From contig JAMYWO010000214.1 in NCBI GenBank assembly GCA_024220525.1, positions 47,946 through 71,039 of the forward strand: DNA of 23,094 bases, written 5' to 3'. Source of the DNA: Cochliopodium minus. Lineage: Eukaryota; Discosea; Himatismenida; Cochliopodiidae. Within the stretch, counting starts at the first letter, position 1. Each line of letters opens with the position of its first letter. The notes under the pieces are model-generated. The model was given only the letters and a program-made list of their open reading frames with translations. It was not told where the DNA came from and ran no database searches. This document shows, piece after piece, positions 1 through 22,800 of the stretch. The position numbers were made by a program, and so were the translations under genes.

Positions 1-255
1 GTCTATTTGACTGCAGTTTTGGAGTATCTTGCAGCAGAAATTCTTGAATTGGCAGGAAATGCAGCAAGAGATAACAAGAAAACAAGAATCATTCCAAGAC
101 ACATCCAACTTGCAGTAAGAAATGATGAAGAATTGAATAAATTATTGCAACATGTAACCATTGCTAATGGAGGTGTAATTCCTTCTATCCATACAGTTTT
201 GGTTCCAAAGAAATCCAAATCAAGAAAGGGTGGATCTTCTTCTCAAGAATACTAA
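1..255 (+). CDS. H2AX: Histone H2A.X, C-terminal part (5' end outside window)
   Basis: Frame 1 is open from the first base to TAA at 253-255 and gives the last 84 residues of histone H2A. It covers the end of the histone fold ([19 protein letters not shown], then [20 protein letters not shown]) and the docking region ([17 protein letters not shown]). The tail ends in SSSQEY. An SQ-[E/D]-hydrophobic C-terminus is the known H2A.X signature, whose serine is phosphorylated by ATM/ATR/Tel1-type kinases at DNA breaks, so this copy should work both in nucleosomes and in damage signalling. No intron is visible in this part. The true start and the L1 loop lie upstream. The first in-frame ATG is not in the window. 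A histone-type stem-loop follows 45 nt after the stop. The H2A assignment is certain and the H2A.X assignment is strong. Confidence 0.97.
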
Positions 256-1297: not shown

Positions 1298-4200
1298 ATG
1301 CAAGAAAAGGATCAATCCAACTTTCCTATAAAAGGAGTATCATTAGGTGCTGGAATATTGACAGTCTCAACCTTTGGATTATATCATCTATACAGGAGAT
1401 TCAACAACACAAACAAAAATAACACAGAAAATACAAAGAAAGATGATATAAATACAAACAATAAGAAAGGATCTGAATCTAAAGTCACTTTATACTTCAC
1501 TACATTGAATGAACAATCAAGATCTATCTGGCATTATTGCTTGTTGAATGATGTAGATGTGGCTGTAGATTTATTGGAGTATAATACTGAGAAATTGGAG
1601 AAAGTTAATCCTTTCAAAAATGGAATCATTCTAAAGGATGGTGATTTCTTTCTTACAGAAGGTAAAAAATTTCAGAAAGGGATATCCCAAATATAATACA
1701 ATCAAATAATTGAGCATTCATTGAATCCCACATCCTGTTATACAAAAAACTTTAATTATATGAAGAAATTTCTTAGCATGAAATTTTTTATATCTGTTTA
1801 AATCAGATGAATAAAAGAATAATGATTGTGATACATTATCTCTAAAATACATTTAAATAATTTTCTTAAAATTTTTTTTTGGGATTCTAATTGTGCCCTA
1901 TTAACATATCTTTATTAGAAAGAAATAAAATTTTTTTTTTTTTTGCTTTAATTTCTGAGTCATTCTTGGTTTTTGAACAATTTGATCAGATAGAGAATAC
2001 TTTGTATAATATTATTTCTTAACACAAATAAAAGATGGAGAATTATGTTTTATATTTGATGTTAATGTGATATATATAATAAGTCATTTAATTCTTTTTG
2101 CAGAGAGATATATGTTTTATGTTTACATAAAATTTTGTTTATTTTCGCATTAATTTTTATTTGAACATTATTCGTCATTTAGCACCTGCTATTGCAAGAT
2201 ATCTCTCAGAGAAGGAGGGAAAGGTCTCAGAATGGTTCGGAGACAACAAGGAAACGAGATCTTTGGTGGATCAATATATGAGCTGGCATCAAAGGTAATT
2301 TAAAATGAATAACAAATGAAATAAAAACAAGAATTTTTTAAAAAATGTCAATTAATCTAATTTTAAATGATAAATTCTTTTTTTTTATTTTTTTATTTTC
2401 CTTTTTTGAAGAAATTTGGGATTTTGCAGTCAATTGTGGAAAGACAGAATTCAAGAGAATCTCAAAGAGAACGGAGAATCCACAGTATTAACCAATGAGG
2501 GTAAAACCACTTTTAATTTTTTTTTTTTTTTGAAACAATCACAAATAATTATTTTTTAATTATTTTTTAATTATTTTTAATTATTTATTTTTCAATTAAT
2601 TTTTTTTTTAATTTTTTGATTTAGGAACCGAACAGTTGATTTCATCTTTGGAGGTGATTGAGAACATCTTCCTTAAGGACAGCCCTTATCTTTGCGGAGT
2701 GAGACCCACCTTCGCTGATATTTTGGCGTGCCACCAAATTTGGCAATTAACCACTTTCAAAGGTAAAAATTGAAACAAAAATTAATTAAAACAACTTCAC
2801 TTTATACTGAAAAATTTTAAACAGAATTTTAATTATCATTTCTTTTTTGTTTTTAGTTTGCTTTTAATATTTTTTCATCATCATTGTTTTTAAATTATTT
2901 TTAATCAAAAGTATGGTGTTAATAAAAAGTTTTTTTATTTTATTTTATTTTTTGTTTCTCATTTCTTTAATAGTTTTTTTGATTATTTTTGGTAGTTTTT
3001 TAGTATTTCATCATTCTCTTGATTTTTTATTAATAAAATTATTTTTATTTTAAAATATTTTTTTTTTATTATATTTTTTTTTTATTATTTTTTATTTTGT
3101 TCTTTATTATTTTTTTTTATTTTTATTTTTCTGCTTATTATTTTTTTTTTTTTATTTAAATTATTTTTCAAAAAAAAAAAAACAAAAAAAATAGGTACAT
3201 TCGGAGTGAAAGTGGGAGAAAAAACAGAACAATGGTTGGCAAAACTCGACAAAATGTTGTTCACAGACCAAGTGTTGGCAGAACTCCGCGAGTTCGCCGA
3301 ATCCGAGAAGGTCCTCCGTCTCAGAAACGACTTGCAACTTTGCGACAAATACAACTTGTCTTCCATCCATCAGCTTCAGTTCTATCAGAGGGGAATTTTG
3401 AACAAGAACTGTTTGTTCAGACCTGTTGTCATTTGTGGTCCTAGCGGTGCTGGAAAGAGCACTTTGATAAGTAAAAAAAAATTTATTTATTTTCATTTAT
3501 TTTATTTTATTTTTTTACTTATTATTTTTTAAAAATTTTTTATTTATTTTATTTTATTTTATTTTTATTTTGTTTTGTTCATTTTTGTTTCTTAAAATTT
3601 GATATTTTGTTATTTTTTTTTTTTTTTGAATTTTTTTTTGTTTGATTAAATTTTACTGTTTTATCAAATTTTATTTATTATTTTTATTTTAATAATTCCA
3701 TTTTTTTTTATTTATCTCATTTTTGTTTCTTAAAATCTGATATTTTGTTATTTATTTTCAATTATATATTTTTTTTTATTTTTTGATTTTCATTTGATTT
3801 GTTTTTTTTTTATTTTAAAAATTTTATTTTATTTTTAATTTTTTTTAAATTTTTTTTTTATTGAAAAAAATAGATTTAATCACAAAGAAATTCCCAGAAG
3901 TATTCACATTCAGCATTTCCCACACCACAAGAAAAATGAGAGAAGGAGAAAAGGACGGAGTGAACTACCACTACGTCTCCCGCGAAGAGTTTGTCAAGCT
4001 CCAAGAACAAAAGATATTTATCGAGAACGCTGAGTACTCTGGAAATCTCTACGGAACTTCCTACATGACTTTGCAAGATGCTAAAAAGAATGGAAAGATT
4101 TGTTTGTTAGATATTGATTTACAAGGTTATTTTTATTTTTGTTTATTCATTTTTATTTTTTTTTTTATCATTTTTTTTTTAATTTCTTTGGTTTTTATTT

Positions 4201-4691
4201 TCTTATTTCATTTGTCAAGATTTTATTTATTGTTTTATTATTTTTTTATATTTATTTTTTTTAATTTTCAATTAATTTTGGTTTTTCTATTTTTATTTTT
4301 TTATTTTTATATTTATTTTTATTTTCATTTTTTTTATTTTTTTAATATTATTTTTTAATTTTCAAAAATTTATTATATTTTTTTTTTATTTTTATTTATG
4401 TTTTTTTGGACGACAGGAGTACAAACAATCAAAAGCGTATGGAACAAAGAAAACGGACCAATGCCTGCCTTCATCCAAATCGTCCCGCCAAACTTTCCAG
4501 AGCTGAAAAAACGTCTCGTAGGACGTGGAACCGACTCCGAGGAAGTAGTCAACAGAAGATTGGAGATTGCATTGGGCGAACTTAAGTACACTCACGTCCC
4601 TGAGTTCTTCGACCATGTTATCATCAATGAGGACAAGGATGTTGCTTACTTGAAACTTACCCAAGCAATCAACGAATGCCAATTCATTTAA
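1298..4691 (+). CDS. Membrane-anchored GST-like / guanylate kinase fusion protein
   Basis: Seven exons: 1298-1661, 2183-2294, 2412-2500, 2625-2762, 3195-3470, 3874-4125 and 4417-4691 (1506 nt, 501 aa). Residues about 11-32 are a hydrophobic, likely membrane-anchoring segment, followed by an Asn/Lys-rich linker. Residues about 61-270 resemble a theta-class glutathione S-transferase: a thioredoxin-like start VTLYFTTLNEQSR, then VNPFKNGIILKDGDFFLTE and PAIARYL, then the helical part with YMSWHQRNLGF and CGVRPTFADILAC. Residues about 311-501 are a full-length guanylate kinase (GMP + ATP to GDP + ADP): P-loop GPSGAGKST, SHTTRKMREGEKDGVNYHYV, ENAEYSGNLYGT, LLDIDLQG and RGTDSEEVVNRRLE. All expected GUK motifs are intact. 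The GST part lacks the usual cis-Pro and the Ser after Glu in the glutathione site, and is probably structural. The joined exons carry both domains through four intact splice phases, so this is one gene. Confidence 0.85.
1662..2182 (+). other. Long first intron of the GST-guanylate kinase gene
   Basis: A 521-bp intron (donor GTAAAA, acceptor TTTAG). It is less simple in sequence than the other introns of this gene. I looked for tRNA, C/D-box snoRNA and a nested reading frame on both strands and saw nothing supportable. Confidence 0.7.
2547..2587 (+). repeat. Short tandem repeat, AATTATTTTTT units
   Basis: Two 11-bp units AATTATTTTTT, a 10-bp unit and a partial copy lie in the third intron of the GST-guanylate kinase gene. 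Confidence 0.8.
3580..3753 (+). repeat. Direct repeat pair inside an intron
   Basis: A 36-bp block at 3580-3615 recurs at 3718-3753 with one T/C difference. The core is GTTTCTTAAAAT, then GATATTTTGTTATTT. The copies are offset by 138 bp inside the fifth intron of the GST-guanylate kinase gene. The intervening bases are T-rich and do not repeat clearly. Confidence 0.85.
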
Positions 4692-4847: not shown

Positions 4848-5781
4848 TCAAACTCTTGTTATGGTGAACATAAGTTTCCCTTTGGCTCCTACTTTCTTGC
4901 CTTCGGGTCTTTCGGAAAGATCGACTTCTAATTGTTGTCCAAAACTCAATCTGACCCAATCTTCCCACTGATCAAAAAAGACAAAGAAATTTTTTTAAAA
5001 AAAATGAAAGAAAAAAGAAAAAAGAAAAAAAATAATTTATATTATAAAGGCTGATATATTTGATGTTTTAATTGATTTTCACATCATTTGATTTTGTGTT
5101 CCTTAATCTATATTAACATCTTTATTATATATGAAATAATTTTGTTACCACATAAGTTATTTGTCCCAAGAAATCATCAGTGATCATATCCTTATCAAAA
5201 ATATCGAATTTGAAGCCAGTGGTTCCTGTCAATTCTTTTTCAGTCAAATTGATTTCGAATGTTTCGTCAAAGATGGGATTCAGTGTTTTGGGGAATACTT
5301 TGGTCTTTCCCAATTGCTTCACTTTCTTATTTTGCATCAATCCAAAGATCACATATGGCTGTACAAAGCAAGGAATTAAATTAATTAAAAAATTATAATA
5401 AATCTCAATTTGCACTAATTAAATGATTATCATAATTTAATTGTTCAATTATTTATCATTTCAAAATCGAATTTATATTCTATCTCAAATATATGGTATG
5501 ATCCAATTGGGAAAGGATTTGATTTTATAAATGTAGGGAATTTATTTTTTCAAAATAAAAAGAAATTTCATTTACATCAGAGAACCCATTTGAATCTGCC
5601 GATTTCAAATTATGTGCATGGTGTATTTCCACTTTATATTTTCCTATTATCTTCAAAAATGAAAAAAAAAAGTTCATTTTAATTTCATTTCTTAATTTTT
5701 CAGAAAGAAATATCAAATTATTTTTCAAAATTCAGATTTTACTTTTTCTTTCACTTCTGATAAACTAAATTCGAACAACAT
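4848..5781 (-). CDS. Single C2-domain protein
   Basis: Four exons on the minus strand: 5781-5743, 5650-5576, 5358-5149 and 4967-4848, all joined in phase 0 (444 nt, 147 aa). The C2 fold starts at about residue 16 with GKYKVEIHHAHNLKSADSNG and FSDPYV, and continues with KTKVFPKTLNPIFDETFEI and FDIFDKDMITDDFLGQITYV. It ends with GKLMFTITRV. Acidic residues of the calcium-binding loops are present (Asp32, Asp38, Asp93, Asp95 and Asp99/100), so calcium-dependent phospholipid binding is likely. No signal peptide or second domain is seen. Small one-domain C2 proteins of this kind are common in plants and protists. The 39-nt first exon is the weakest part of the model: its ATG follows an A-run and its donor is GTAAAA, but both phase and sequence fit. 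Confidence 0.87.
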
Positions 5782-6021: not shown

Positions 6022-6961
6022 TTAACTAAAAATATTGTCGTCATCATCGTCATCATTGTTGTCGTGATCAAAAGCTTCTAAAGTTCCGTTGTAGGAAACT
6101 TCTTGGGAAAAGTCGATGGTGTCCTTGAACACGATGGAGAAAGGGCCTCCCTTAGCAGGTTTGTCCAAACCCAACATACCCATATTGTCTTTTACAAGAT
6201 CTTGTAATCCCTTGTATGTTTTTTTTCCTCTATTAAAAAATAAATTAAAAAATAAAAAATGTAAAAAAAATTGTAAAAATAAAATAAATGATAAAAATGA
6301 TATTACAAAAATGTAAAAAGTAAAATAATGATAATGAAAAATTAAAAATATTCAATAAAAAAATTAAAAAACAAAATTGTAAAAAATAAAATAAATGATA
6401 AAAATAATATTTTAAATAAAAATAAAAAATAAAAAATAAAATGACAAAAAATAAAAATAAAATCGACTATAAATAAAAATAAATAATAAATCAAATAAAA
6501 ATTAAAATATTTAAAAAAACTGTACGTTTGTCCATCAACGGTGAATTCCAAGGATCCGTAAGGATGGATGATACGAGTGTGGTAGATGCGATCTTCCACT
6601 GCATAACTCAGAGTATAGTTGCTTTCAGAAGAAGAGAAACGTACCATATATTGACCTACTCCCTTTTGTAAACCCTATTTCCAAAATAATTTAATTATCA
6701 GTTTTATTATTTATTTATTTTTTTTATTTTATTTGATAATAAATTAATTTTATTTGATTTAATTAATTAAATTATTTTTATTTTTTATTTATATCTATTT
6801 GAAAATCATTTTTTATTTCATCAATTTATGTTGTAATTTTTTTTATTTTTATTTAATTTCTCCAAAACTAAATATTTTATTTTTATTTTATTTTTATTTT
6901 ATTTTAATATCACTTAAATTTTTTATTTTATTTTTACATTTATTTATTATTTTATTTTACA

Positions 6962-6992
<31 letters not shown>

Positions 6993-9740
6993 ATTTTTTA
7001 TTATTTTATATTTTTTATTTCAAATTTTTTATTTCAAATTTCAAATTTTTTTTTTTTATTCCAAATTTTTTATTATTTATTTTATATTTATACCTTTTCA
7101 GCTTCTTGAGCAGAAGTGTTTCCCCAAAACCAGTCCTCAGCACAAAGAGAGGTGACATACTGGAGCCACTTGCTAGGAACGAACTTTGGAAAAAAGCCCA
7201 AAATGAAACCAAACTTCTTCAGTGTCACCACCTTGTTTCCGTCCACCATTGATGCGAAGAGGGTGTCCAAACATTTGTAGTATGGTGATGTGTGTTTAAG
7301 ATCCTTTAAAAAAAATAAAAATAAAAATAAAAATAAAAACATAAAATATGAAATAAAATATAAAAATAAAATAAAAATAAAAATATAAAAATTTTAATTT
7401 AATACCTAAAACTAATAAAAAAATAAACAAAATAAAAAATATGACTTAAAAGTTATATTTAAAATCAAAAAGAAATATTCAAACAAAAGTCAAAAACTAA
7501 AAATTAAAAAAACATATATTAATAAAAATAAAATAATCATAATAATTAAAAAATATTACAAATGAAAAATAAAAATTAAAATTTTTTTTTTTTTAAAAAA
7601 ATAAACAATTAATGAAAATAAAAATTATTGAATCAAATAAATTTTAAAAAAATAAAAGAAAGTTACCAATTTGGAAATTTTGCTGAAGGAATTGGCAAAT
7701 TTTTCGAAAGGAACGTCATCTGGGGTGGAGAAGTTGGATTTCCAGAACTTACGTGCGTCCTTGTCAAAGACTGCACAATCAATGAGAATGTGCTTGTTGA
7801 ATTCAGTGACAACTCCTAAAGAAATTAAATTTTAAAAACAATTAAAAACAAATAAGATAAGTTAAAAATAAAAATGAACCAAAATAATAAAAAATTAAAA
7901 AAAATTAAAAAAAAAAAATCAAAAAGAAATTTATTAAAATTAAAAAATAAATAAAAATAAATAAAAAGTAAATAAAAAATGAAATAATTAAATAAACAAA
8001 AAAAAAATTTAAATAAATGAAAAATAAATAAAAATTAAAAAAATTAAAAATAATATCAAAAATAAATTAAAAAATTAAAAATAAATAATATCAAAAAAAT
8101 TTGTTTTTTAACCCTCGAAAGAAGGCCTTTTGCTTGGAGTTCCATGCCAGCAGGTCTCTGCAAGTTTGAGAAGACTTTCAGGGCACTTGAAAGGGTCAAT
8201 AGGGAGTTTTGGGCGAGCGGGGTTTTTCTTCATGCAGATTGCTTGCAAAAACTCTGACAAGTTGTCGTATTCTTGGAAAGGTTCTTGCAATGTGATGAAT
8301 TCATACAAAGCTAAAGGAATTTAAAAATAAAAATAAAATAAAAATAAAAAATAAAAAATAAAAAATAAAAATAAAAATAAAAATAAAAATAAAAGTAAAA
8401 ATAAAAATAAAAATAAAAATAAAAAATAAAAAATAAAAAATAAAAATAAAAATAAAATAAATAAAATAAAAAATAAAAAATAAACTATAATAAAAATAAA
8501 ATAAAAATAATCTCACCAATTCCGAATGAGTAAACATCTCTAGAGTGATCAATGTGATCATTTTCGAGTGCTTCTGGAGCGACCTTTTTTTTTTTTTTGC
8601 AAAAAAAATAAAATTAAATTAAAATTTTAGTAATAAAATTGTATTAAAAACTAAAAAGAAAATATTCAAAAAAAAAAAGTTACGTATAAAGGAGTTCCTG
8701 CGCATTCTTCAGTGGACAAGATTTGTCCCATAGGAACCAACAAAGAGAGCCCGAAATCACAAACCTTTACTGAGTCGTCTTTTTTGCAGTACAACAAGTT
8801 ACTTGGTTTGAAGTCACAGTGAATGACACCTGCTCCATGCAACCAAGACATTCTTTAAAAAAATATTTGAATTTAAAATATTTAAAATTGATATTTAAGT
8901 AAAAAATTAATATTTAAAATAATGAATATGTAAAAAAAAATTAAAAAATAAAAGCAATATTAAAAAAAATTTATAATGAAGTAATAAAAAAAAAATATTG
9001 AACAAAAAAAAATTAATGAATTAATTTTTTTTCATTTTTTTTTTACCCTGCAGCTGCTTGACTTGCATATCTCATTCTGTCGTACAAAGGCCATGTTTTA
9101 CCCTTTGAAAACAAAAGTTTTTCGAAATCTGCATCAAGCAATTCAGTTACCTTTTTTATAAGAGAATAAAAATGAATAAAAATGAACAAAACTTAATTTA
9201 AAAAATTTAAAAAATTTAAAAAATAATAATTTAAAAATCAAGAAATATTTTTTTACAATTTTTATTTCCTTTTTAGAGATATAGGCACCCATAAACAATG
9301 CTACGTTAGGATGTGCGATTTTTTGCCACACTTCTACTTCTTGTTTGAAGGCGGAGGTTTGTTTGCTGTCGAATTCTTTTCCTCCTTTAGGTTGGGGAAT
9401 TTTGATCGCTACTGGGAATCCACGGCATGTTCCTTTGTACACTTTACCGTAATTTCCTTCTCCCAAAAAATCTGATTCTTGGTACTTTATTTGAAAAAGA
9501 AAATGATAAATGAAATTTCTCAATATAAAACAAGATTCTTATTGTAATATATTTGAAAATATTAATATATTAATTTAATGAATCCTATTTATTTCAAAAT
9601 TTAAATATTTTTGAACCATTTTAAGGAATAATTTTTTTTTTTATAAATTTAACTTGTTATGATGGATTTATTACCTTTATTTCATCAGAATTAATGAAAT
9701 ATGACCAATCTTTTTTTGTAAACATATTATCTGTACTCAT
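6022..9740 (-). CDS. Shk-type protein kinase with C-terminal SH2 domain
   Basis: Ten exons on the minus strand: 9740-9675, 9484-9257, 9150-9047, 8852-8684, 8583-8517, 8310-8113, 7815-7667, 7303-7094, 6674-6526 and 6229-6022 (1548 nt, 515 aa). Kinase domain, residues about 22-278: FLGEGNYGKVYKG (P-loop), VAIK (Lys50), IHCDFKPSNLL (catalytic loop), CDFGLS, VAPEAL and RPSF. A middle region (FNKHILIDCAVFDKDARKFW) is typical of the Dictyostelium Shk family. The SH2 domain is at about 384-480: DWFWGNTSAQEAE, then YMVRFSSS with Arg409 as the phosphotyrosine-binding Arg. The tail is acidic (six Asp in a row). Order and length match Shk kinases, dual-specificity kinases of the TKL group. The HRD motif reads HCD, so this is a non-RD kinase. 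Domain calls are strong; exact ends of the AT-rich introns are less so. Confidence 0.92.
8323..8484 (+). repeat. AAAAATA-type microsatellite in a kinase intron
   Basis: About 160 bp made almost only of 5- to 7-bp units (A4-6 followed by T), within the intron at 8311-8516 of the Shk-type kinase gene. On the gene's own strand it is T-rich. Confidence 0.9.
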
Positions 9741-10075: not shown

Positions 10076-13000
10076 ATGAGTGATATGATTGTATACAATG
10101 TGATCAATAAACTATGCTATGGTATACAATCACTCAGAGATTTCTTTATAAAGCATAAGGATCTCGAAAATATTGATAAATCAGAAAAAACATTCCTACA
10201 ATTTCTCCAGGATACAATAATATGCTTCCATGATAAAGATAAGATCCTCAATATCAATAATATGGCGATAGAAAATATCACAAAAGATTCAATGAACAAT
10301 ATTATGAGGAAGATAATAAAAGAATCAAGGAGAGAAGAAAATATAATGGGAAATGGATACAGAAAGAATTATAATTGTGAGAATATCAAAAAAAAAAAAA
10401 ATTATTAAAATTTATAAATATATTTATTCATATTTATTCATATTTAAGCATTGGAAATATCTTTTCCTAATACTGTGAATAATTTGCTTACTTCCAAGAA
10501 TTGGGAAACATTGTTGTCTATCATTGGAAACAAAATGATGAGTGAAATAATTTCCAAAAGCATGATTTTTGTAAAACTGACTGCCAACAACTATTTGCAG
10601 GTGACAGGAGTCTCCATATTTTCCCTACAAGAAAGAAGCAAAGCCAAGTTTGTCAAAAGGTTCGATTCGATGGTGTTTTATGGGAACTACACCACTTTTG
10701 GATATGGTTTGTATGGCGAGCACATGCTTTCTAAATTTGAAATATCTAACAGGGCTGCAAGTAAATTGTTGAGACACATTTTTGTTGTGAGTAGAGAAGA
10801 TGAAATGTTGACACCAAAACAAAGTTTTAACAAGAACAATGTGAAAAAAAGCAATGTGAAGAAAAACAATGTAAACAAAATTTTCCAAGAAAAGAATAAA
10901 GTACGAGAAATTAGAAATTATTTAAACAACCAAGCTCCAAAAAATCAAAATGAGAACCAAGAAAATAATATGAATATTCAAGTCAGACAAATACAAGAAA
11001 AAAGGAGCAGGGACGTTAACAAAAACGATGCAAACGAAAAACCCCAAGAAAAAAGAGTTCGAAATACCGAAAACAATGTGAACAAACATGATGTAGAGAA
11101 TAAAGAAGATCAAGTACCAAACGACAAAAAAAATGATGAAAAAAAACCCAAAAAGAAGAAAAAGAAGAAAAAGAAAAAGGAGAGAATCAGATTGCCTGGA
11201 TCTCTTACCACACTCGTCCCTATCTTCAAAATGCTGATCCGAAAACACAAACAGATGAACTACAAGTACTTATTGAACCGAATTTGTCCTATTCCTTCCC
11301 ATTTGGTAGAACAGGATCCCAACCAGAAGAGCTCTACTTTCATCATCAAAAAAGAGTTTACTGTTCCAGAGTTGATTAACGAAACTGTCCCTACTTTTAA
11401 GGTTTGGATCTTTTTGTTGAGGGTTTGCGACAAGTTATTTCCGAGAAAAATATTTTTCGGTAACAAGTATAATCTAACTCTGTTTCAAAGAGGTATCATA
11501 TTTTTAATTTTTTTTTTAATTTGTTTTAAAATTCTTAAAAATTATTTTATTTTTAAACTTTTTAGTTTTTTTTTAATTTTTTTAAATTTTGTTTTTTCGT
11601 TTTTTTGAAAAACTGTTTTAGCATTGAAACTTCTTCTTAATCTCAGAAGATTTGAAAAGTTTCCAATCCTTAGTTTCATCCAAAGATTCAAAACAGAGAA
11701 GATGCATTTTCTCTTACTTTCTTACCCTGATAAACTCAAAACACATTTCGTTCAAAGAAGAAATATGTGTAAGAAGTTCTTCTCCTGGGTCTTCAAAGAC
11801 GTCGTCTGTCCTCTCATCAAATTCAACTTTTATGTCACTGAGAAAGTTCATCAGAAGCACAAAATGTTTTTCTTTAGGAAGGTGGTCTGGGAGAAGCTGA
11901 CAGAATTGAGTTTATTGACTTATCAAAAGGAACCAACAAAGTTATTAAAGAAAATAGAAATAAGTAAATTTTTTTTTTGAATAATTTTTTGAATAATTTT
12001 TTTGAATTTTAATAAATTTATTTTTTGAATTTTTTGAATTTTTTTATGAATTTTTTTATTTTGAAAGGAAATCAGTTTGAGGGAAAACAAACCAAAAGTA
12101 ATTATTTTTTTATTATTTGTTTTTATATTTTATTTTTTGTTAGGTTCTCTAAAATATCCTTCTTTGAGATTTCTTCCTAAAGAGAAAGGTGTTCGTCCCA
12201 TCATGAATCTTAAAATGCAAAATGCAAAAATGAGGGAAACTCTCTCTGCGCTCTACTTTGAGAAAGATAGACAACCTCACTTACTGGGGTAAATTTTTAA
12301 AATTTTTTCATTTTATTTTATAATTTTTGTTAATTTTTATTTTATCATTGTTTTTTCTTTTAAAATATTTTTATTATTTATTCTTTTATTTATTATTTTT
12401 ATTTGATTTTAGATCAAGTGTATTTAATTTTGAGCAAATATACCAAAAATATCTCAACTTTGTTTCAGAAATGAAACAATTCTGCCAAAATTACAACATC
12501 CAAAAAGGAGTAGAAAGCCTCAAATTCTACTTTGTCTGCGTGGACATCACCAAAGCCTTTGACACCATACAACAGAAGAAAATGTACGAAATCATCGAGA
12601 AGATGCTGAAAGAAGAACAATACATCGTCCACGAATACGTCGTCACTTCTCCTTCAATCGGAAAAATAAAAAATCAATTCCGCAAAATCTCCTACAGCGC
12701 GGAATTACCTGAACAGTTCCCTGATTTGGCATTGAAGTTTTCCAACGACAATCCTGTCAAGAACTCTGCCTTTGTCGATAAAGTTTTCCATTCCAGCTGT
12801 AATAGGGAGACCATCTTGAAGAACTTGAAGGAACAAATTTTTAGTAACATTGTAAAGTGTGGATCTGAGTATTTTGTACAATGCAACGGGATACCTCAAG
12901 TATTGCTTTATATTTTTATTTTATTTTATTTCGATTTATATTTAATTATTTTCTGAATTGTAATTATTTTTTTTTTGTCAACTTTTTTTTTGTAGGGTTC

Positions 13001-15143
13001 CATTTTGTCTTCTTTGCTTTGTAGTCTTTATTTTGGTGACATGGAGCGAAAACATCTCGGTTTCTTGCACACCTCTTGTGCTATATCTCCTCCAACCTCA
13101 CAAATGAATTCTCAAAACAAAACACAAATCAAAATAGGTAAATATCATAACATTTAACCTGATTATTTTAATATTCTATTTATTTTAATTAATTTTTTGA
13201 ATCATTTATTTATTTATTTATTTATTTTTTTGATTTATTAATTTTTTGAATTAATTTTCATTATTTATTATTTGTTTTTTACTCAATTATTATTTCCAAA
13301 ATTTATTTTTTTATTTTAAAATATTTTTAAAATTTTATTTATTAATTTATTCTCTTTTTTAAATAATTTTTTGTATCATTTATTTATTTTTTTTTTGATT
13401 TATTATTTTTTATTCTAAAATTTTATTTTATTTTTTATTTTTAAATATATATTGATTTTTTATTTCATTTAAAATATCAAATAAAGATTAAATTTCAAAA
13501 AAATATTATTTCATTTTATTTTAATCAATTTTTTAATATCTTTAGATGAAAGATATATAGACAGTAACAGCAACAGCAACGAGAACATAAAAACATCGCA
13601 ACTTCCACCAGTAGGGCTACTAATGAGATTCACCGACGATTTTTTTTACATAACCAACTCCAAAGAAAGTGCCTTTTCGTTTCTCAAGTTTATGGACAAC
13701 GAGAACAACGACTACAACTTCAAAATCAACACCCTCAAGACTAAAATCAATTTTGACTGCCATTTGAGTCCTGAGAAGATTGTGAGGGCTTCTCAGGACA
13801 ACTTGGTTGCTTGGTGTGGTTACCTGTTTGATTGTGACACTCTCGAAGTTTATGCAGATTATTCCAAAAGTTTATCTGCTCGTAAAATATTAATTAATAT
13901 ATTTTTTTTTATTTTTATTTTTTAAACATTTTTTTAAATATTTTTATTATTATTATTTTTTATTTTTATTATTTTTTATTTATTTTTTAATATTTTTATT
14001 ATGAACAGTTTTATTAATATCTTTTTACTTTTGAATTTTTTTTTACTTAATTAGAGATGTTCAAAACTGTAGAAAAAAATATTGTTATATTATAAATTAA
14101 TATCCACTAACAAAGTTGTAAATTTTGGACAAGTCTAACAATATATTTACTTTTATTTCTTGAATATTTTATTATTATTTATTATTTTTAATTTTTTATT
14201 ATTTATTTTTTATTTGTTATTCTGATTTTTTTAATTTTGATTTTATTATGATTTTTTTGATTTTTAAAAGCTATTTATAATGCAATGACTATTGAGAGGG
14301 AAATCCATCCAGGTCTTAGTTTAAAGGACAAAATGAAAGCGCTCATCCAACCCAGGTGTTTCCCCATTATCTTCGACGGAAACATAAACTCCAAAAAAGT
14401 TGTTCTCATAAACATCTATCAAAGTATAATACAAACAATTTTTTTTTATTTTTTATTTTTTTGTTTTTTTGTTTTTTATTTTTTATTTTTTTTATTTTTT
14501 TTATTTTTTATTTAAAATTAATATTTTTTTTTTGTTTTTATTATTTTTATTATTTTTTAGTTTTCTTGTTTTGTGCTTTAAAGTATCATTGCATTGTAAA
14601 AACACTCAAAAAGAAAAAGAACGAAGAACATTTTTTGTTGACAGTGATCGAAGAACTCATCGTTTATTGCAACTCCCTCATCCTTTCCCGCATCAACTCT
14701 TTGGTTCTCAGAAAGATCAAACCCATTTTAAAAAGAGAATTTAATTTTGAGGAAATCAAGTATCTAGCTCTCAGTGCATTTATTCATGTCTTAAAGAAAA
14801 AACAAACAAGTAAACATTTTTTTTTAAAAATAAATTTGATTTTTTGTTTTGTTTTTATTTTTTTCGAAAAAATTTTGGTTTTATTCTATTTTTAATTTAT
14901 TATTTTGTTTATATTATTTTTATTTTAATTTATTATTTTGTTTATTTTGGTGTTTATTTTTATTTTTGTATTGGTTTAATTTGTTCATTTTTGTTTTGTT
15001 TATTTTGTTTTTGGGCAGGATACAATTCACTATTGATCTCTTTGTACCAAAAGATCCCTATTTTGAACAATCAAGATATTTTTTTGATGGATCTTGCCAC
15101 AAACAGTCCAAGAAACAAAATTTTTGAGGAATTTATTTATTAA
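10076..15143 (+). CDS. TERT: Telomerase reverse transcriptase (TERT)
   Basis: Eleven exons: 10076-10376, 10449-11492, 11622-11963, 12068-12097, 12144-12288, 12413-12899, 12996-13137, 13546-13881, 14271-14423, 14561-14809 and 15019-15143 (3354 nt, 1117 aa). A TAA sits directly before the start ATG. Parts in order: TEN-like domain (to about 215; NSLEISFPNTV); a charged Asn/Lys linker with a poly-Lys run near 335-345; CP motif (YKYLLNRICPIP, about 377); QFP region (FFGNKYNLTLFQR); T motif (FNFYVTEKVHQKHKMFFFRK, about 517); motif 1 (LRFLPKEKGVRPIMNL); motif A (FVCVDITKAFDTI, Asp665); B' (GIPQGSILSSLLC); C (LLMRFTDDFFYIT, Asp861-862); D (NTLKTKINF); E (WCGYLFD); and a C-terminal extension with INIYQ. 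All three catalytic aspartates are present. T, CP and QFP separate it from retroelement reverse transcriptases. It should extend telomeres by copying the telomerase RNA, which is not in the window. Confidence 0.95.
13204..13227 (+). repeat. (ATTT)n microsatellite
   Basis: About six ATTT units in the intron at 13138-13545 of TERT. Confidence 0.85.
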
Positions 15144-15368: not shown

Positions 15369-16682
15369 ATGAGGAAATTTTCCAATTTAGGATGGAGAAT
15401 GAAATTATTGATCTTCTTCGGTCTCTTTCTGATATTCCTTTTCCTTTTCATCCTCTATCTGGAAAATCAAGGTGAAAATATTCACCACAACAGAATGAGA
15501 CAACAGAAGGAAGGCCATTGGGGCTTTCCTACCTCCACCATCGATTGGTGCGAGCCAAATTACAATCAGAGCTTCTATATCGCAGAATTTTTTAATTCTC
15601 TATCTTCTATACCGTATCTCTTATCTTCCATCATTGGATTGATCATCTCATTTAAATATTCCTTTGAAATAAGATGGTAAAAATAAAAATAAAAAAAAAA
15701 GAAAAAATAAAAATCAAATACACTATTAAATTTCAGATATTTTTTGCGATATATCGAAATGATTTTCAATTTAGTTATTATAACCTATTTAATCTCTCCA
15801 TTTTAAAGGATGATAGTGCATTTGTTGATTTTTGTGATGGGAATAAGCTCTACGATGTTTCATGCAACTTTGGACAGGAGCTTCCAAGTGATGGTAAGAA
15901 ATAAAATATAATTTCCTCCGCCAAATTCGAAATTTAAAAGAAATATTGAATTAATACATATTAATATTAATATTTAAAAATACAACATTTAATAATTAAT
16001 TTCTAGATGTATTAATATTGATTAAAACTTCAAAAAAAATAATAATATAGGTTGAATTAACTGCCATAAACATAGTGCTGATGTGTATTTACATATCTTT
16101 GGCACTTGAAAACGATCAATTCAGCAGAAAACCACTGATATACATTCTAACACTAATCCTCCTTCTGACATACTCTATCTACTTTCTATTCTTCGACAAC
16201 CCAGCAGTGTTTCAATCCATTTTTTCGTTATTGACGATTTATGTCATTTTGAGATCGTTGAGGGACTACGTGAGACCTACCACACACTTTACCGCCAAAT
16301 TGCTGATAGAGTTGGGGTTTTTTTGTTTTGTTTTGGCTGTCTTTTGTTGGATCCTTGAGCCCATTTATTGTTTTAGATATGTATGTTTTTTTAATATATT
16401 TTTTAATTGTTAAAATTTTTTTAAATTAAAGGGTTATCTTCAATTTCATTCAATTTGGTAAATAATCAACAAAATTTTTTTAATCAAATAGTTTTTTTCA
16501 TTAAAAAGTTATATATTTTAATTTTATTTTTTAGGCATATTTTCTCTGATTTAGGAATTTACTTCTTCATTCTTTACAGTCAATTCCGAAGGCTTGGAAA
16601 GTTACAGAGAAAGCCAAAATTGAAGATCTTCTCGCACTTCCTTTATCCTGTAGTGATTTCTCCCAAGCAATACATATTATGA
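15369..16682 (+). CDS. Alkaline ceramidase-like membrane hydrolase
   Basis: Five exons: 15369-15676, 15809-15893, 16051-16380, 16432-16457 and 16535-16682 (897 nt, 298 aa). A TAA lies directly before the start ATG. The family signature is near the N-terminus: GHWGFPTSTIDWCEPNY, then YIAEFFNSLSS, with the Asp, Trp, Glu, Asn and Glu that bind calcium in human ACER3. Several hydrophobic segments follow, the first at about residues 12-30. The metal site is visible as SSTMFH (Ser-x3-His) and, near the end, FHSIWH (His-x3-His). The enzymes cleave ceramide to sphingosine and a fatty acid in ER or Golgi membranes. One oddity: eleven residues after the first metal His, where the family has Asp (LLDEL), this reads VMVEL, across the exon 2/3 junction. 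A 26-nt micro-exon carries the first His of the His-x3-His pair. Confidence 0.9.
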
Positions 16683-19478: not shown

Positions 19479-19801
19479 CAAAATATTTATTCAAAAATTT
19501 TGGAATTAAAATAATTTCTATAACTATTTTAAAAAAACATTTTTGATTATTTTAAAATTTTCTTTGATTTTATTTAAAAAAAAAAATTTTTCCATTTTTG
19601 TTTTTTTTTTTTTTTATTTTTAAAAAAACTTTTTCTGTTTAAATTTATCGAAAATTTTTAATTCTTTTCCAAGACAAGAAGTGAAATAATGATTTCTTTG
19701 ATTTTTTGCACTTTAAAAAATGAGAAATTAACAAGAAAATAAATTTCAATCAAATCATTTTTGAACATTAAAAAAAAAAAAATAAAAAATAAAAAAAAAA
19801 A
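19479..19801 (+). promoter_or_regulatory. Spacer between kelch and nucleotidyltransferase-DHH genes
   Basis: These 323 bp hold the 3' end of the kelch transcript and the promoter of the next gene. The left half is T-rich. The last 34 bp before the ATG are almost pure A, an A-rich leader like those before other start codons here. A minus-strand frame through this stretch is low-complexity Phe/Ile and is not a gene. Confidence 0.5.
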
Positions 19802-22800
19802 ATGAAAGAAGACATCACAGAGATAAATAAACCAAAAAATGAAATCAGCCTTGAATTCATTCAAACTAGATTGCAAGATCAGGTCAAAAAATCCTTGGGC
19901 GAGAATTCCAAAGACGTGAAAATCTTGTTTGGGATGCCTTTTGGATCTTTAGCTCTCAATCTCAATTTGCCAGAGTCAGATACTGATTTATTTGGGATCT
20001 ATATGGCACCTGGGGAATCTTATTTGATGTCCACCTCGAGACATTATCCTGAGAAGATCTCAAGTTCCACAGGTGATTGAAAAGAAAAAATTATATATTT
20101 AAAAAAGATATTGAGTTTATCTTTTCATATATTTCATTATAATGAATAATCAATGATTGATGAAGATTTATCAACATATCTCTTTGTAATATAAAATTGA
20201 AAAGAAAATATTATATTTAATTCAATGACACATTAAGATTTTATTAGATTGATTTGAAGATTTTTTCTCATTATGAAACTTTTTTGATAATTATATGGCC
20301 ATAGCCAATTAAATTCTAATTCAAATTACAAAAAAATAAAATAAATATTTCACTTTCTAAAAAAAGAAGTTTTAATGTGGGGAACAATGAGAATTCCCAA
20401 AATTTTTTTTTTTTGTAAAATTTATTTTGAATGAATTATAAAGATATTGGAAAGATTTTGAATCCATTAAATCTGATAAAAACAATTATTTTTTTCAACC
20501 AATTTTTTCATGATTTTTATTTTATTTTATTTTAATTTTATTTTATTAATTTTAATTTGATTTGTTTTAATTTTTATTTTAATTTTCAATTTTTATTTTT
20601 CATTTATTTTTTGGGTAGGAGGTTCAAAGAAGAACCAAAGCTCAGACATAGACATAGAGTTGTTCGAGTTGGGATACTTCATAACACAGTTAAGAGAAGG
20701 GAACTCCCAAGCACTAGATCCTTTGTTCTACGAGGGTCCTCTGTGTTTCACCACCCCTGAATGGGAACTCATGAAAAAAAACAGAAGGGATATGTTGGGT
20801 AATAATAAATTTAATTTTTTTATTTTATTTAATTTAATTTGATTTTTTTTACATAACATTTATTTTTATTAAATTTTTTGATCAAAATAATTTTTTAAAT
20901 AAAGTTTTAAATAAAGTTTTTTAAATATTTAATTAATCAAAATAATTGAAGTTGATAAAAAAATTTTTTGAATTTTTTGAATTTTTAACGCATTTTTATC
21001 AATTTTTTTTTAAAAATTGGTTTTTTTAATCAAAAAAAATAGGAAAAGAATTTTTTTCTATGTTTTTAAAGTCTGCAAGTGGGATGTACCAAATTTCTTT
21101 GAAGAAAGCCACTAAAAGAATTTACACTAGTTTGAGAAAGTTTAAAGAGTGCTTGAGAATGATGGAAGGTGAAGAGCCAAAAGGTAAAAAATTTTCTAAA
21201 AAAATATATGAAAAATAAAAAATAAAATAAAAGAAATAAAAAATAAAAATAAAAATAAAAATAAAAATATAATATGAAATAAAAATAAAAAAATAAAACA
21301 AAATAAAATAAAATAAAATAAAATAGTAAGAATAATAATAAAATTTTTTAAAATAAAAAATAAAAATAAAATACATCAAAATTATTAAAAATAGAAATAT
21401 AAAAAAAATAAAAGCAACAAAAAAATGAAAATAAAAAATAAATAAATAAATAAATAAAACAAAATAAAACAAAATAAAATAAAATAATAATAATGAGAAC
21501 AAAAATAAAATTTTTTAAAATAAAAAATAAAAAATAAAAATAAAATAAAAAAACTATTAAAAATATAAATATAAATGAAAACAATAATTTTTTTTTTTTA
21601 AAAAAGTGTATTACACGGGAGAGGAAAGGGAGTTTTTGATGAATTTCAGGTTGGATTTGTTGGAACCAAACAAAATCGAGGCATGCAAGAAAGTGGTAGA
21701 GGAAGTTAAGAAAAAGTGTTTCGTGATGATCCAAAATAGTTCTCTCCCAATGAAAAACACCAATTATGACAACTTTGAAAAAGTAATTTTTTTGAATTTT
21801 TTTTAATTGTTTTTATTTTTTTAATTTTTTTATTTTTTTATTTTAAAAAATTTATTTTATTTTTAATTTATTTTTATTTTTTTTATGTGAAACAGACGCT
21901 TTTGGAAATCAGGTTGGAGGACATGAAAAAGAGATTGGGCATCAGTCTTTCCATCTCCAACATCGACACCTCAACAAGAAAGGTTGTCATCTTATATCAT
22001 TAGTAATCAAAAAAAAAAAAATTTTTTTCACCAATTATGACAACTTTTAAAAAAAAATGATATTTAAATATTAAAAATTTCATTTTTTTTTTATAATTTT
22101 TATATTAAAATAATTTTATTTTTAATTTTAATTATAATCATTTTTAAAATTCAGTTAAAAATAAATTTATTCTCATTTTTGTAAAATTTAAATATTAATT
22201 TTAATTTTTTATTTTTAAATATTATTTTTTATTTTTTATTTTTTATTCAATTTGTTTTCTTTCAAAATTTATTTTTCAATTATTAACTTTTAAATTTATT
22301 TTTTATTATTTTTTAAAGTCCTTGTTTTGACGGAATATTTTCAGCATTGGCTGCATACTTGAGATTCAAAAACATGCCAAATACAACAGTAACATTCATC
22401 CCACACTCCACAGTAGTCCCTTTAGATTTCTCCGAAAAAAAAGAATTGTTCAATGAACTGTCGGAAGTTTATTTATTGGATTACGTCGGACCTAAAAATT
22501 TTATTCCGACGTTGTCTAAGATCGTCAAGAAAGTTGTTTTGATCGATCACCATAAGACTGCTGCTAATTATGTTGAAGAATGGAAAAAAGATAACTTGCT
22601 TTCAGATAATGGTAAAAAAAAAAAAAAAATTTTTAAATTTAAAATTTTTTATTTATTTTTTTATTTTTATTTTTTAATTTTTTTATTTTTTTTATTTATT
22701 TATTCATTTTTCATTTTTTATTTTATTTTTTAAATTTAAATTTTTTTTATTTTTTTATTTTACTTTTTAAATTTAAATTTAAATTTTTTTTTATTTTTTA

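Follow-up and report, generated by a model that had tools for sequence, protein, structure and literature searches.

A Cochliopodium minus gene that appears to join a hydrophobic N-terminal stretch, a GST-like fold and a guanylate kinase

Guanylate kinase, which converts GMP to GDP, is commonly regarded as a diffuse housekeeping enzyme. Its fold also recurs inside larger proteins: in MAGUKs, PDZ and SH3 modules stand ahead of a kinase fold whose nucleotide site has been lost. GST folds, for their part, are found at membranes or as docking modules in metaxin/Tom37, GDAP1, mPGES-2, EF1B-gamma and MetRS/AIMP. To our knowledge none of these GST-fold proteins carries a guanylate kinase, and we know of no GST fold in MAGUKs, FAP42 or the leucine-rich repeat and guanylate kinase protein.

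Here we describe a gene of Cochliopodium minus in which the two folds appear to be joined. It lies in a window, the whole stretch of DNA that was analysed, of 23,094 nucleotides, on a contig of an AT-rich, intron-bearing genome (44.65 Mb in 598 contigs). The A+T content is 76.7% in the window, 74.4% in a 15-kb genome sample and 86.9% in the introns of the gene. For comparison, PMC11550330 lists higher A+T values for Anaeramoeba ignava, 80.65% in its genome and 91.86% in its introns. The fusion gene occupies positions 1298-4691 of the plus strand: seven exons join to 1488 nt, that is 495 codons and a TAA stop, in an unbroken frame. All six introns are GT-AG, and GC ranges from 31 to 45% in the exons and from 8 to 21% in the introns. 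The original prediction of seven exons without a frame break is thus borne out, and the two introns that it gave, 2763-3194 and 3471-3873, are both exact in the joined model. The parts of the gene are as follows, with the basis of each assignment in brackets.

1298-1661, plus strand: exon 1, residues 1-121; start methionine, hydrophobic stretch at residues 13-32 (1334-1393), Asn/Lys-rich spacer and first half of the GST N-terminal domain (joined model, hydropathy, flank)
2183-2294, plus strand: exon 2, residues 122-158; the N-terminal GST domain ends here (APAIARYL) and the C-terminal one begins (joined model, PDB and GST alignments)
2430-2500, plus strand: exon 3, residues 159-182; GST C-terminal domain (joined model, GST alignment)
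2625-2762, plus strand: exon 4, residues 183-228; GST C-terminal domain including the TFAD motif (joined model, Pfam, GST alignment)
3195-3470, plus strand: exon 5, residues 229-320; final 39 aligned GST residues (229-267), linker and kinase P-loop GPSGAGKSTLI (joined model, GST alignments, frame check)
3311-3412, plus strand: linker between GST and kinase, 34 residues (268-301); GC 0.431, third-position GC 0.647 (frame and composition)
3874-4125, plus strand: exon 6, residues 321-404; GMP-binding part of the guanylate kinase (joined model, PDB, yeast alignment)
4417-4691, plus strand: exon 7, residues 405-495; remainder of the guanylate kinase with conserved arginines, stop TAA (joined model, PDB, yeast alignment)

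Several other gene pieces lie in the window. Upstream, the C-terminal part of a histone H2A (1-255, plus strand; PF16211, 65.4 bits) ends in SSSQEY, which we take to resemble the H2A.X tail, and a SPRY domain lies at 504-902 on the minus strand (44.4 against a cut-off of 26.3). Downstream, the minus strand holds a C2 domain (5125-5418; 46.2 against 22) and, within 6342-9538, a kinase domain (9143-9538; PF07714, 40.6 bits against 23.1) followed by an SH2 domain (6342-6674; 22.3 against 21). These two are candidates for a single gene, in an order that is presumably that of the amoeba SHK kinases. On the plus strand we find a probable telomerase reverse transcriptase gene at 10448-13925, with TEN_TERT in 10448-11605 (37.4 bits, cut-off 25) and, in 13485-13925, a reverse-transcriptase-like piece that stays below cut-off (17.1 against 29.6). 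The same strand carries a match to the Ceramidase family (16051-16413; 37.3 against 32.5) and a nucleotidyltransferase-like piece below cut-offs (19793-20080).

We propose, with a probability of roughly 0.55, that the fusion gene encodes a single 495-residue protein in which a short N-terminal anchor and a flexible Asn/Lys-rich spacer would lead into a theta-type GST, with a 34-residue linker connecting this to an active guanylate kinase. The GST fold, of full length and devoid of a normal glutathione site, would most likely act as a dimerisation or docking module. Together with the anchor it would hold the kinase on the cytosolic face of a membrane, for which the outer membrane of a mitochondrion-type organelle is the likeliest candidate. 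The continuous frame, the assignment of the folds, the intact residues of the kinase, the altered GST site and the second, stand-alone kinase gene can be read from the DNA; a transcript, catalysis, membrane insertion with its site and topology, and the docking role are inferred.

The anchor is plausible, and is the weakest part of this reading. Residues 13-32, GVSLGAGILTVSTFGLYHLY, form a moderately hydrophobic stretch whose 19-residue Kyte-Doolittle maximum of 1.24 was reached by 3 of 10000 shuffles of residues 1-62. This falls short of 1.6, the usual threshold for a membrane span, so the stretch may not cross a membrane; the kinase, too, has a stretch (from residue 306) that scores 1.08. The N-terminal hydrophobic anchor of the original prediction therefore stands as a moderately hydrophobic stretch, clustered beyond shuffling, and as a plausible anchor. 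Its link to the GST is close: following a stop, exon 1 is open in its frame from 1280 onward, and by itself this exon joins the stretch to the start of the GST. After M1 the protein has no methionine until M154, leaving M1 as the only one ahead of the GST; barring an unseen upstream exon, a product with the whole GST would therefore start at Met1 and carry the stretch.

The stretch is followed by RRFNNTNK, and its mean on the Wimley-White octanol scale is at most 0.247 over windows starting at residues 9-20. According to section 5 of the review PMC4010795, which does not state which Wimley-White scale is meant, over 89% of the signal anchors of mitochondria and chloroplasts score under 0.4, and at least three basic residues are usual in the flank that follows the span. 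The low hydrophobicity and the flank fit a signal anchor of an organelle outer membrane; the low hydrophobicity also fits the absence of any span. If the stretch is an anchor, our best guess is that it sits in the outer membrane of an organelle and that the enzyme faces the cytosol. A 102-residue N-terminal query matched the fusion gene alone in the genome, the next matches having E-values of 0.285 and 0.293.

It is possible, if rather unlikely, that the fusion is soluble: its GST fold would dimerise the active kinase or dock it to a cytosolic complex, and the N-terminal stretch would not be a span. GST folds are established docking modules in tRNA-synthetase complexes, and a hydropathy so little above that within the kinase would suit such a protein. 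However, the clustering of hydrophobic residues beyond shuffling, their position at the extreme N-terminus ahead of a basic flank and their tie to the GST, which no other methionine precedes, all argue for the anchored form. As to the earlier suggestion that GDP might be produced at a membrane, the sequence speaks well for a competent kinase (see below), and much more tentatively for attachment to a membrane.

Among the PDB matches listed by phmmer, the middle module comes closest to theta-class GSTs (2C3N/2C3Q, theta 1, and 4MPF, theta-2; E 1.4e-13 to 4.5e-13). In Pfam, the module passes GST_C (22.3 against a cut-off of 20.7) and fails GST_N (13.9 against 20.9), on which a stand-alone GST from contig 227 of the same genome scores 54.0. 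The theta-GST-like fold of the original prediction thereby finds partial support, from the PDB relatives and the C-terminal domain, while the N-terminal domain stays below its cut-off.

The nearest stand-alone GSTs by protein search are this gene and one on the minus strand of contig 137 (C227 and C137 hereafter), both theta-type, with five exons each, 222 residues and the same layout in exon models made by eye. Our comparison covers these two of the GST-like genes in the genome, where at least 15 GST_N and at least 12 GST_C exon matches occur at E 0.01 or better. With them the module shares 31-32% identity over its whole length and, once exon limits are mapped on the alignment, no intron position; C227 and C137 thus give no support to a recent origin of the module by copying of a local GST gene. 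C227 also has a match to Tom37 below cut-off (17.6 against 25.1).

Three positions of the glutathione site are changed in the module: the catalytic Ser is N, the cis-Pro is I and the serine of the Glu-Ser pair is A. We take the Ser, the cis-Pro (in the thioredoxin-like half) and the Glu-Ser to be glutathione-site residues; C227, C137 and the PDB theta GST chains have all three. Columns that are invariant with the two stand-alone GSTs include the Glu of Glu-Ser, TFAD, WH and YLCG. Probably, then, the GST fold has been kept and its glutathione site lost, and the GST_N score below cut-off is in keeping with the decay of that site. The presence of every expected motif, claimed for the kinase, does not extend to the GST active site. 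Because the Ser, cis-Pro and Glu-Ser serine are gone, docking or dimerisation appears likelier than transferase activity, which lends indirect support to the docking platform put forward in the original prediction.

That the module is instead a working enzyme or a glutathione sensor with an unusual site, coupling thiol state to guanine nucleotide supply, seems to us improbable. The Glu of Glu-Ser and the other invariant fold features are indeed retained, but the three substituted residues are precisely those that both stand-alone GSTs compared here retain.

The joining of GST and kinase is carried by exon 5. In one frame it runs without a stop from the C-terminus of the GST through the 34-residue linker into the kinase P-loop, LFRPVVICGPSGAGKSTLI; both alternative frames hold stops, and the chance of an open frame of 92 codons at intron base composition is about 0.0008. 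Aligned with C227, the window protein is covered over residues 61-267 and reaches position 218 of the 222 residues; the gaps measure 3, 2, 1, 7 and 1 residues, and the last falls shortly ahead of the exon 4/5 junction. With C137 the alignment stops at this same pair (267 and 218 of 222). Since both whole-length alignments cross the exon 4/5 junction, residues 229-267 can be read as the end of the GST, encoded in exon 5. PDB 4hi7 likewise matches across the junction, as far as residue 253. The best PDB matches, those to theta GST chains, end ahead of it, at residues 222-225. Taken alone, the exon 5 tail gives modest support: with C227 its score of 47 was equalled or exceeded by 4 of 2000 shuffles; with C137 it scored 38 (70 of 2000 shuffles) and aligned elsewhere.

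It would thus be very surprising if a GST gene and a separate guanylate kinase gene had been mistaken for a single one. A GST terminating in intron 4 would miss the 39 residues aligned within exon 5, and this exon alone bridges the GST end and the P-loop. Two objections to a single gene had been named at the outset. The first, a poly(A) site before 3195, is weakened: it would truncate the GST fold, because residues 229-267 match the end of the two stand-alone GSTs. The second, a start codon inside exon 5, has an in-frame candidate in Met249 (codon at about 3254-3256), which counts for two genes but sits within the last part of the GST; initiation there, giving a GST fragment with the kinase, is conceivable as a minor form. 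The doubt about two transcripts is largely answered by the DNA itself, and the reading as one gene with three modules is supported by the continuous frame and by exon 5.

The kinase part matches Pfam PF00625 over residues 304-490 (160.2 bits, cut-off 25.2, E 5.8e-47) and the NCBIfam equivalog for guanylate kinase, TIGR03263 (180.1 bits against 160.45). Its best PDB relative is 1EX6 (E 2e-46, 161 bits), which together with 1GKY we take to be the yeast guanylate kinase, and 82 of 177 residues aligned with the yeast enzyme are identical. We assume the P-loop and GMP/ATP site of the latter to comprise G8, G13, K14, S15, S34, R38, R41, Y50, E69, Y78, S80, D98, D100, R131, R135 and R146. At these active-site and structural positions the fusion is identical in 15 of 16, the exception being a T for S80 that is also found in the stand-alone kinase of the same genome. 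The claim that the kinase is complete and keeps every expected motif therefore holds, save for this one substitution, and from its residues we expect it to be active (GMP + ATP to GDP + ADP).

The stand-alone kinase is a second gene, on contig 36, encoding 200 residues with no GST (PF00625, 182.6 bits). It is identical to the fusion kinase in 85 of 185 aligned residues and to the yeast enzyme in 81 of 177, so that the two kinases are about as close to each other as each is to yeast. In the genome the PF00625 profile picks out four matches, two per gene; like the GST tallies above, this number is a lower bound, the search having been run exon by exon. A MAGUK-like scaffold that uses its kinase fold only for protein binding is the least credible reading: the fusion to further modules and the possible membrane site resemble MAGUKs, but the P-loop and GMP-site residues are intact, the yeast enzyme scores 161 bits against 88 for the best MAGUK chain, and neither SH3 nor PDZ is present among the best 25 of the 27 Pfam families matched by the fusion protein, for which reasons MAGUK membership was rejected.

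In its fullest form, our preferred reading of an anchored fusion would describe a hitherto undescribed membrane-bound guanylate kinase, whose GST fold, stripped of glutathione chemistry, would serve as a platform for dimerisation or docking and bring GDP production to the surface of a mitochondrion-type organelle, beside the stand-alone kinase. We offer this extended version tentatively and hold it to be doubtful. If true, the coexistence of a stand-alone kinase and one held by a pseudo-GST would point to GDP/GTP being supplied locally, for instance to the GTPases or carriers of a single membrane, and a metabolic kinase would join the enzymes that dock via a GST fold. A kinase feeding the GDP/GTP carriers of a reduced mitochondrion was considered in the light of PMC12343136 and set aside.

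We looked for the same combination elsewhere. No PDB chain matched both the GST and the kinase parts among the matches listed (the best 60 of 77 for the GST, 44 for the kinase), and one scan of viral contigs for a fused relative returned 10 pattern matches, none of which was confirmed. No description of a GST joined to a guanylate kinase was found in the literature searched, namely titles and the beginnings of abstracts, a range that leaves most subscription papers outside.

Compared with known systems, the kinase is alike to the canonical enzyme (1EX6/1GKY) in the residues and site positions counted above, and differs in its setting: the canonical guanylate kinase is a single domain with chains of 186-187 residues, whereas the fusion kinase comes after a putative anchor and a GST fold. 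Theta-class GSTs (2C3N/2C3Q, 4MPF), the best PDB relatives of the middle module, keep the Ser, the cis-Pro and the Glu-Ser serine; the fusion module is changed at all three and is joined to a kinase. MAGUKs, FAP42 (7n6g) and the leucine-rich repeat and guanylate kinase protein (9ijj) likewise combine the guanylate kinase fold with other modules, MAGUK chains scoring at most 88 bits with the fusion kinase. Metaxin/Tom37, GDAP1, mPGES-2, EF1B-gamma and MetRS/AIMP place a GST fold in a membrane or docking setting, as the fusion would on our preferred reading. Altogether, the parts are known, and it is their order, putative anchor, GST and guanylate kinase, that is new as far as we know.
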